The notes under the pieces were generated by a model, which had not been told where the DNA came from, did not search any database, and worked only from the letters and a program-made list of their open reading frames with translations. The position numbers were made by a program, and so were the translations under genes. A DNA stretch of 64,000 nucleotides from Bdellovibrio bacteriovorus (lineage in GTDB: Bacteria; Bdellovibrionota; Bdellovibrionia; Bdellovibrionales; Bdellovibrionaceae): the NCBI RefSeq assembly GCF_001592735.1, contig NZ_LUKE01000005.1:62001-126000 (forward strand), read 5' to 3'. Position 1 is the stretch's first letter; the number at the start of each line of letters is the position of its first letter. Of this stretch, positions 32,616-36,693 are shown in pieces.

Positions 32616-33848
32616 ATGAAATCCGTGGCCTTAGATCAAAAATTTTGGAAGCACTTTGCGAAGAATATTTGGGAAAAACAGGCCCTAGCGCTTAAGAACG
32701 TCAAATCCGGTTTGTTAGAGATGAGTGCTGCGGAAATCTTTGATCTTTTAGTCCTTTACAGCGACCGCTGCCGCAAGCTTAATGACCCTGAAGGGTTTAA
32801 GTTTTACATTGATGGCTTTAAGGCCGGCCCCGAAGACGTCTTGCAAGTCCTTCCAGAAAAATCAGACAAGTCCCTTTTAGGCTATCACCAGCGCATGGAA
32901 GCAGAGTTTTCAGATTATTGCCTGGTTTGTGATGAACTTTTGCAAGTGAACTTAAAAAAACAACACCTGCTCACCGACTTCACCGACGAGCTTTATCGCC
33001 ACGTGGGATTCCCCAATCGTTTTTCAGAGATGGGCCTTTATTTAGGCAACTACCGCCAAACTCCGTTTGGAGTTCACGTCGATTCTTGCGGAGTATTCAG
33101 CTTCCCGGTTGTTGGAACTAAGAACTTCCGTTTATGGCCCGCGGGTTACGGCGAAAAGCATCCCGCCTTAGATCGCGCGTTTAAATACGACAAATACAAA
33201 AAAGATTCCGTGGTGATCAAAGCCGGCCCCGGCGATATGGTCTATTGGCCTTCATCCGCATGGCATATTGCTGAATCCGATGGGTCTTTCAGTGCGACAT
33301 GGAGCTTAGGCGTTTGGGTCAACCAGCCCCACAAAGAAATGTTCACCGACTCCTTAAAAGATATTTTAAGCACCAAGCTGGGAGCCAAAGGCGATCTTCC
33401 GACAACAAAATTTAAAAGCTTGCACAACAAATCCGGTGAAGTGAGTGAGCTGCCGCAGGCTTATCAAGACTCACTGAGAACCTTACAAAACTTAACTTCC
33501 GAAGAGCTGCAAGAGGCCTTTTTAAAGTCTTGGATGAAGCATATTTCGCTACAAGGATTTAAAACCGTCCCCGGGGTCCGCTTGAAACTGTCCTATAAAT
33601 CTAAAATAAAACTGCGTAGCGATAGGTCCCTGATCTTGTGGCAACAAGGTGTGATCAAGAAAAATACTTATTATTTTAGTTTCGGTGGAGTTTTGGTAGA
33701 AAGTAATTCTTTTCCACTATTAAAACTTGTGCAGGCCCTTAATGACCGCAAAGCTTTTGTGGTCGGTGAGTTTTTAAAAGGTAAAACGGCCCAAGCAGAT
33801 CTTAAAAGTTTGCAAACCCTTGCGGATGCCGGCGCTTTAAGTCTTTAA
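32616..33848 (+). CDS. JmjC/cupin-domain oxygenase-like protein
   Basis: 410 residues. Central cupin with HVDSCGVFSFPVVGTKNFRLWP (HxD iron ligands) and later WPSSAWHI (third His), as in JmjC / RoxA (YcfD)-type 2-oxoglutarate oxygenases. In bacteria such proteins hydroxylate ribosomal proteins or modify peptides; the target here is unknown. The C-terminal third is a separate helical domain, typical of ROX enzymes for dimerisation. Converges with the NUDIX gene (12 bp overlap). Confidence 0.8.
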   Translation: MKSVALDQKFWKHFAKNIWEKQALALKNVKSGLLEMSAAEIFDLLVLYSDRCRKLNDPEGFKFYIDGFKAGPEDVLQVLPEKSDKSLLGYHQRMEAEFSDYCLVCDELLQVNLKKQHLLTDFTDELYRHVGFPNRFSEMGLYLGNYRQTPFGVHVDSCGVFSFPVVGTKNFRLWPAGYGEKHPALDRAFKYDKYKKDSVVIKAGPGDMVYWPSSAWHIAESDGSFSATWSLGVWVNQPHKEMFTDSLKDILSTKLGAKGDLPTTKFKSLHNKSGEVSELPQAYQDSLRTLQNLTSEELQEAFLKSWMKHISLQGFKTVPGVRLKLSYKSKIKLRSDRSLILWQQGVIKKNTYYFSFGGVLVESNSFPLLKLVQALNDRKAFVVGEFLKGKTAQADLKSLQTLADAGALSL

Positions 33849-34310
33849 CCACTCAACCGAACTTACGGTTTTTAAATCCTCGCCATAAAATATTTTAGCG
33901 TTCACGGGCTCGTTCTTTAAAATTTTAGGCAGCCAGTACTTGGCATCATCCCACATCTTTTCAAATGGAATTTGTGATTTCGCCACCCACTGGGGTTTGA
34001 TCTCCGCCGTTTCGGTGGGCGTGCCCTGCCAATGGGTGCAGGTGAATATGTAAACGTCGTGATGCCAGCCGGAAGATTCAGGAAAGATAAACTCTACGCG
34101 TCCGCCCTCGTACAAATTCTTTGGATCTATAGTGACATGAATTTCTTCAAGCACCTCGCGACAGGCGGCCTCAATGACCGTTTCGCCAGCATCCACCTTG
34201 CCACCAATGCCTAGCATTTTGCCTTGGCCAAAGCCGGTTTTCTTAACCCCTAAAAGAACAAGGTCTCTCTGATCATCCACCAGAAAGACCAATGTCATTT
34301 TCTTTTTCAT
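33837..34310 (-). CDS. NUDIX hydrolase (MutT-like)
   Basis: 157 residues. NUDIX box GGKVDAGETVIEAACREVLEEIHV is complete with the REVLEE metal site, near residues 35-60. Likely hydrolyses (oxidised) nucleoside triphosphates such as 8-oxo-dGTP. Cytoplasmic. Confidence 0.88.
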   Translation of the reverse strand: MKKKMTLVFLVDDQRDLVLLGVKKTGFGQGKMLGIGGKVDAGETVIEAACREVLEEIHVTIDPKNLYEGGRVEFIFPESSGWHHDVYIFTCTHWQGTPTETAEIKPQWVAKSQIPFEKMWDDAKYWLPKILKNEPVNAKIFYGEDLKTVSSVEWLKT

Positions 34311-35527: not shown

Positions 35528-36502
35528 CTATGCCTGGGTTTCGTTTAAAACCATTCGGTAATTTAAAATGAAAACCGAAATAATAATGATAGCCACCCCC
35601 ACAAGTTGCGCGGGGCCAATGTGTTCGCCTAGCAAAATAAATGCGATCATCATCGCAAATGGAAGTTCGATTGAAGAAATAATACTTCCCAATCCAACAC
35701 CCGTGATCGGGAAACCTTTGTTCAACATGATCGGGGGCAACACGGTCCCGAAGATCGCCACAAACAAACCGTAAGTAAGAAAAATACTAAAATCAAAACT
35801 TTTGCTGCTGGTAAATTCCGGACTTAAGATCTTAACGCCCCAATAATAAGGTGCAATTTGGGTGACGATCGCAAAAATCAGAACGACCAATGCACCACCA
35901 TAAAGCATGATCTGACTGCGCTTAATCGGAGGCAAATGCGAAGCAATGCTGCCAGTTGCCGCCATCGTCCCACTAAATGAAATCGCCGCTAACATCCCGA
36001 AGAAAAAACCACGTATATCAAGATGACCGGCCGAGGCATCTAGTGCATTTGTCGCCAGCACGGTTCCAAATAGAACTAAGACGACGGCGATAATTTTATC
36101 AAGGCTGGGCCAAGTTTTCTTAATAATGCTTTCAAACAAAACACCCAACCAAATTGACTGCATCAAAAGCACCACCGCCACCGAGGCCGCGATATACTGC
36201 ACGCTTAAATAATAAAGCACACTTGTAAAACCTAATGTCGTCCCCGCGGCCACTAGCTGGATATATTCAGACTTGGAAGGCTTAGGCGCGTTCTTAGAAA
36301 AAAACATCGCAAGCAAAGTAAGAATAAGTACTCCCCATCCGAATTGCGCGACGGTGACTTCAGCGGTGGTGTGACCATGTTTGTAAGCAAGTTTTACGAA
36401 GGTCGAAAGCATCCCGTAACTTGATGACCCAATAAGAATCATCAAAATGCCCGAAAGCAATTTAGGGGATCGACTCGTTTGATTGGAACCTGCTTGATAC
36501 AT
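35528..36502 (-). CDS. EamA/DMT-superfamily transporter
   Basis: 324 residues with ten membrane helices in two repeats, typical of drug/metabolite transporters of the EamA type (first repeat start GILMILIGSSSYGMLSTFVKLAY, second about 155-310). Substrate is not readable from sequence, but the leader RNA carries a purine-riboswitch-like fold, which would point to a nucleobase or nucleoside substrate. No close operon partner. Confidence 0.85.
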   Translation of the reverse strand: MYQAGSNQTSRSPKLLSGILMILIGSSSYGMLSTFVKLAYKHGHTTAEVTVAQFGWGVLILTLLAMFFSKNAPKPSKSEYIQLVAAGTTLGFTSVLYYLSVQYIAASVAVVLLMQSIWLGVLFESIIKKTWPSLDKIIAVVLVLFGTVLATNALDASAGHLDIRGFFFGMLAAISFSGTMAATGSIASHLPPIKRSQIMLYGGALVVLIFAIVTQIAPYYWGVKILSPEFTSSKSFDFSIFLTYGLFVAIFGTVLPPIMLNKGFPITGVGLGSIISSIELPFAMMIAFILLGEHIGPAQLVGVAIIIISVFILNYRMVLNETQA

Positions 36503-36543
36503 ACACTTCTACCATCTGTTTTTGAGGGACACTCCCTCAAGAT

Positions 36544-36604
36544 AGGTAGGCAACTATTGGCGGTAGTTGGTAGAGACGTTCAACCGAATTATGAACTTAT
36601 ACCC
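36544..36604 (-). promoter_or_regulatory. Purine-riboswitch-like aptamer in the EamA transporter leader
   Basis: Read on the minus strand. P1: GGGTA/TACCT (36600-36604 / 36544-36548). Joint TATAA. P2: GTTCA/TGAAC (36592-36596 / 36578-36582) with loop TAATTCGGT. Joint GTCTCTACC (36569-36577). P3: AACTA/TAGTT (36564-36568 / 36552-36556) with loop CCGCCAA. Joint GCC. The GG of loop 2 can pair with the CC of loop 3, and UAUAA, UCUACC and the C at the 3' joint are at the positions of the purine aptamer; C there is the guanine-type residue (A73 is C). The 3' side of P1 can instead pair with AGATGGTAG before the start codon, and a hairpin TTGAGGGA/TCCCTCAA (36522-36540) lies between, so control of translation is likely. 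Loop 3 differs from CCGUAAA. Confidence 0.7.
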
Positions 36605-36693
36605 GGGTTATCTAGGACCCAATATACCTTAATTGATTGAATTCAGGCAACGGGATTTACTGTGAATGACTTAATACGAGCCGAATTCAGACC

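Follow-up and report, generated by a model that had tools for sequence, protein, structure and literature searches.

The analysed stretch of Bdellovibrio bacteriovorus DNA, 64,000 nucleotides long and hereafter called the window, carries on its minus strand a gene for an EamA-family protein whose leader contains a purine-type aptamer (Table 1). PF00892 domains and fold place the protein among the EamA, or drug/metabolite transporter (DMT), proteins: its AlphaFold model (pLDDT 86, pTM 0.84) matches DMT structures in Foldseek with E values of about 1e-6, including nucleotide-sugar transporters, the LicB choline importer and the triose-phosphate translocator. Solved structures searched by sequence yielded no match. 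The substrate of the protein is given neither by fold nor by sequence. Two genes downstream lies a gene for a NUDIX (MutT-like) protein (33837-34310, minus strand; annotated by reading the translation alone), with a START/AHSA1-like gene and a gap of 655 nt between it and the EamA gene.

An earlier, sequence-only reading had described the full layout of a purine aptamer on the minus strand upstream of this gene, and every element that it named is present in a 61-base aptamer with UAA as J1/2. An outer extension of P1 can be drawn; it is not significant against shuffles in the window (p 0.66-0.90) and is clear in two orthologous leaders, G005 and L113. The promoter-like site 5' of the aptamer has 9 of 12 consensus matches and is weak evidence alone; after shuffling, 0.5 sites of this quality occur in the region. 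A transcript from it would begin just 5' of the aptamer.

Table 1. Positions of the transporter gene and its leader elements in the window
Feature	Position	Strand	Detail and basis
EamA-family (drug/metabolite transporter) gene, 324 aa	35528-36502	-	PF00892, E 6.5e-24
Start-proximal competing strand AGAUGGUAG	36509-36517	-	MFE fold; partners are the P1 3' strand (36549-36540) or J2/3
Eight-pair hairpin UUGAGGGA-GUG-UCCCUCAA, expression platform	36522-36540	-	Leader fold
Guanine-type purine riboswitch aptamer, from P1 5' strand to P1 3' strand	36544-36604	-	RF00167; 13/13 orthologous leaders; covariation
P1	36604-36600/36548-36544	-	GGGUA/UACCU
P2	36596-36591/36583-36578	-	GUUCA/UGAAC, loop AAUUCGG
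P3	36569-36564/36556-36551	-	CAACUA/UAGUUG, loop CCGCCAA
J2/3 GUCUCUAC with U47, C48, U51; guanine-type pocket	36570-36577	-	Pocket-base comparison with relatives
J3/1, CC (C73 and C74)	36549-36550	-	Orthologues have A73
Possible outer P1 extension, 5' strand AGAUA	36609-36613	-	Partner UAUCU 36544-36540; complementarity read from the sequence
Promoter-like site, TTGCCT 36650-36645, 18-nt spacer, TATATT 36626-36621	36621-36650	-	Consensus scan

Conservation of the aptamer before EamA genes

In the Rfam scan, the RF00167 match at 36624-36527 scored 35.1 bits, 1.9 bits short of the gathering score of 37, with an E value of 2.3e-4 for a 201-base stretch against all 4227 families and of 0.0011 genome-wide. 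At gathering thresholds a tRNA alone is reported in the window and no riboswitch is matched, so routine annotation would miss this one. An HDV-like ribozyme candidate on the plus strand reached 14.3 bits where the cut-off is 44 and was rejected as a chance match.

Orthologues of the EamA gene were collected from the first 60 relatives (8, including the window), from 369 genomes of the phylum (12) and from named Bdellovibrionaceae and Bacteriovoracaceae records; after removal of duplicates, 13 distinct leaders remained. The aptamer lies directly 5' of the EamA gene in all 13 of these Bdellovibrionota orthologues, including 8/8 among the 60 relatives, which supports the proposal that an aptamer of the purine class heads an EamA-family gene. 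The check that had been suggested for it, an RF00167 match with covariation in homologous leaders, also came out in its favour: the 12 other leaders all exceed the gathering score (38.4 to 63 bits), and it is because of this homology that we take the window copy, the lowest-scoring of the 13, to be real. All three helices around the junction covary across the 13 leaders, with 92.7% of cells paired and six pairs changed on both sides, whereas structures slid along the alignment give at most 39% paired and none of 500 shuffles reaches the covariation score. The contact between loops 2 and 3 (G37 and G38 with C60 and C61; U34, A65 and A66) is invariant in all 13, the window included.

Among the sequences compared, the aptamer is shown to be strictly linked to the EamA transporter across two families. 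In the three carriers from a distant family (f12), the EamA-linked aptamer is the only purine aptamer reported per genome, so that gene and switch travel together. No purine aptamer motif was found upstream of distant EamA homologues (30-35% identity) in Paenibacillus and Chitinophaga. Judged from these comparisons, the window leader is a genuine guanine-type riboswitch of a known class in an unusual gene context, overlooked at standard thresholds.

Pocket bases and ligand class

Comparison of the leaders shows a three-way-junction aptamer with a guanine-type pocket. The window has the guanine-class bases U22, U47, U51 and C74, which are conserved, and C74, the pairing partner of guanine, is found in 13/13 EamA-linked aptamers. 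U22, U51 and C74 are the guanine-contact bases (PMC9295807), and with all three in its pocket the window copy agrees with guanine-I at these positions; guanine is the ligand that we infer. The window also resembles the guanine-I riboswitch (RF00167) in its J2/3 of the form GUYUCUAC and in the GG-CC contact between loops 2 and 3. It differs in the C48 that EamA-linked copies have for U48, in its own C73, and in standing before an EamA transporter gene with a predicted translational ON platform, as opposed to the common OFF control.

Other classes of the scaffold were rejected base by base. The suggestion of a 2'-dG-like class found no support: selectivity for 2'-dG depends critically on a C at position 51/58, and U51C alone converts guanine aptamers to 2'-dG (PMC8872408), whereas the window has U51 in place of the C51 of 2'-dG-I and 2'-dG-II (PMC8872408), and RF01510 (2'-dG-I) gave no match up to E 10 in the 201-base stretch. 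The 2'-dG-II aptamers of Bacteroidetes share the scaffold, but besides C51 they carry an insertion in J3/1 and have G-C as the junction-proximal pair of P1, in contrast to no insertion and A-U in the window. The adenine class requires U74, as against the C74 of the window and of all 13 EamA-linked aptamers, and xanthine-II needs G51 with J2/3 and J3/1 insertions (PMC9295807), where the window has U51 and no insertions.

The loop-3 sequence and A73C had been taken as possible signs of a variant. Both differences are present, but they are minor and fall at variable positions: the loop-3 departures lie where orthologues vary, with C60, C61, A65 and A66 kept, and although A73C is unique to the window among the 13 EamA-linked aptamers, 35 of the 69 non-EamA aptamers of relatives have A at position 73 and the other 34 have U, so that this position tolerates change. 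The real marker of the EamA-linked clade is C48, present in 12/13 (A48 in L114) and, among relatives, in 8/8 EamA-linked aptamers versus 0/69 others. In published crystal structures residue 48 is flipped out, and it is not known to contact the ligand. A C48 purine aptamer also stands before an EEP-nuclease-like gene (L124:600-690), so C48 is not exclusive to EamA leaders.

Sister aptamers before nuclease genes

The same genomes hold one to four purine aptamers each. All 71 other classified purine aptamers of the relatives precede nuclease-type genes, namely 36 HNH, 27 endonuclease I, 4 PD-(D/E)XK-like, 2 EEP and 2 DUF3465 genes, the HNH and PD-(D/E)XK genes having been assigned from motifs that we read ourselves, with no Pfam hit. 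DUF3465 is not known to act as a nuclease. Elsewhere in the phylum, 12 of 13 further aptamers fit the nuclease pattern, L124 and L126 by our own EEP-like reading. The window's genome has two nuclease-linked purine aptamers, one with an HNH and one with an endonuclease I gene, at G000:C3:249159-249256 (L025) and G000:C1:978908-979003 (L080); those of relatives are L001-L030, L054-L101 and L118-L131. The nuclease-type genes behind the aptamers encode signal-peptide-like N-termini.

In these nuclease leaders the start codon follows 11-18 nt past U75 (67 of 68 measured), and a purine-rich ribosome-binding site nearly always lies in or just past the P1 3' strand. Because of this position in or next to P1, the ligand is predicted to repress the nuclease genes, and the purine riboswitches of Bdellovibrionota are likely to form a guanine-repressed nuclease regulon. 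A parallel is found in 2'-dG-II aptamers, some of which precede endonuclease I and ComEC genes (PMC8872408). The sister aptamers (RF00167) thus share class and genomes with the EamA-linked one but differ in platform: the window has its start codon (36502) 46 nt past the U75 equivalent, a competing strand and a predicted ON sign. Riboswitch candidates upstream of EamA-annotated genes are known also in ykkC subtype 2d (PMC7266159), which has an unrelated aptamer fold and no ligand assigned at the time of review (PMC7266159). We found no paper on purine riboswitches in predatory or related bacteria in the literature searched, which was incomplete.

Expression platform and sign of the switch

A scan of the leader region found no intrinsic terminator, which makes transcriptional attenuation unlikely; the platform hairpin was rejected as one, as no U-run follows it. 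In the MFE fold of the isolated leader, CUACC-U-AUCU (36549-36540; C74 and the P1 3' strand) pairs with AGAU-GGUAG (36517-36509), as the sequence-only reading had expected of the P1 3' strand near the start codon, and this start-proximal strand also occupies the ribosome-binding-site position. The competing strand suggests translational control, as that reading had proposed. In the window itself, pairing of this strand with the aptamer does not exceed that in shuffles (p 0.28 in one test, 0.066 in another), and the whole leader is only moderately stabler than shuffles (z -1.6). In six other leaders (L113, G005, G029, G021, G022 and G012) the pairing between the start-proximal strand and the leader's own aptamer surpasses that of shuffles (p <0.05); it is borderline in G011 (p 0.063), and strong in G005, G029, G021 and L113; in L113 it forms 17 pairs to J2/3-P3-L3 (p <0.003 versus shuffles).

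Locking the aptamer raised the mean unpaired probability of the window start region from 0.44 to 0.63. Across the 13 EamA leaders, start-region accessibility goes up on locking in 9-10, and the segment between 5 and 14 nt before the start opens in nine and closes in one, whereas in 67 nuclease leaders the start region closes in 57 and opens in five (Mann-Whitney p 9e-7, uncorrected for related sequences). The gain is modest, as shuffled platforms give 0.05 against 0.10, half of the mean effect, and an earlier test that enforced the aptamer core alone, with no shuffled control, pointed in the same direction. Four of the 13 leaders (G022, G011, G012 and G005) show no ON effect in equilibrium folding.

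Two orthologous leaders have features of their own. The L113 leader (L113:2832-2990) has an outer P1 extension of 10 perfect pairs (GUUAAUAGGC/GCCUAUUAAC) and, adjoining the start codon, an anti-aptamer strand that can form 17 pairs; no other leader of the set shows an ON-switch design so clearly, and for testing it would serve better than the window copy. In the L116 leader (L116:2433-2530, minus strand; 63 bits), J2/3 UCUCUACC has its complement in the ribosome-binding site GGUAGGAG, and the aptamer core itself could act as an anti-ribosome-binding-site.

The start-strand pairings and accessibility shifts together favour ligand-activated translation, and we give a probability of roughly 65% to the reading that the leader is a guanine-type purine riboswitch controlling translation of the EamA/DMT transporter, ON with guanine, with a suggested role in efflux. 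Without ligand, AGAUGGUAG would pair with the P1 3' strand (or J2/3) and hide the translation start; bound guanine would lock P1 and free AGAUGGUAG, turning translation ON. The predicted ON sign favours efflux, as an importer would more naturally be OFF, and the transporter may then export surplus guanine, or a compound related to it, while the nucleic acids of the prey are digested. The same guanine riboswitch could instead be OFF, bound guanine permitting a start-sequestering hairpin before an importer for purine scarcity. Guanine riboswitches commonly reduce expression (PMC9295807), the sister aptamers in the same genomes resemble OFF switches, and in G022, G011 and G012 the start-codon hairpin stays when the aptamer is locked, with no rise in accessibility; yet locking opens the start region in the window, G025, G021, G029, L115, L117 and L113, and the partners of the competing strand are aptamer strands and not an anti-sequestor, so that we regard OFF control as rather unlikely.

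A caveat to the favoured guanine-ON reading is A73C in the aptamer core, which could mean a changed affinity or specificity, or a copy in decay. That EamA-linked aptamers sense a non-guanine purine compound, exported by the transporter during prey nucleic acid digestion, seems distinctly unlikely, and it is very unlikely that C48, the altered loop 3 and the window's C73 mark a change of specificity towards a different purine, or a derivative, as the compound exported by the transporter. The near clade-exclusiveness of C48 among relatives, a gene context unusual for guanine riboswitches and the known new-ligand variants of the scaffold (PMC9295807) would accord with a changed ligand, but every known ligand-contact base is guanine-type, C51, G51 and U74 are absent (PMC8872408, PMC9295807), and the C48 aptamer of L124 precedes an ordinary EEP nuclease. 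Loss of function by decay of the window copy we consider extremely improbable: its lowest score, unique A73C and altered P1 3' strand are set against a P1 altered on both sides with pairing preserved (G-C, columns 6/62), intact P2, P3, J2/3 and loop contacts, and an intact transporter reading frame.

A link between nucleobase level and the transporter had been called sensible for a predator that scavenges prey nucleotides. The predicted ON sign favours efflux, or relief from excess purine, over scavenging uptake; the link to scavenging is better seen in the sister aptamers before secreted nucleases. With the favoured guanine-ON reading, a transporter family that is uncharacterised in predatory and related bacteria acquires a link to a ligand that can be tested. 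The reading also suggests that a single sensor fold may be used with opposite signs in one cell, high guanine turning the nucleases OFF and the transporter ON; if true, this opposite-sign use would provide a bacterial predator with a simple nutrient circuit at the RNA level.
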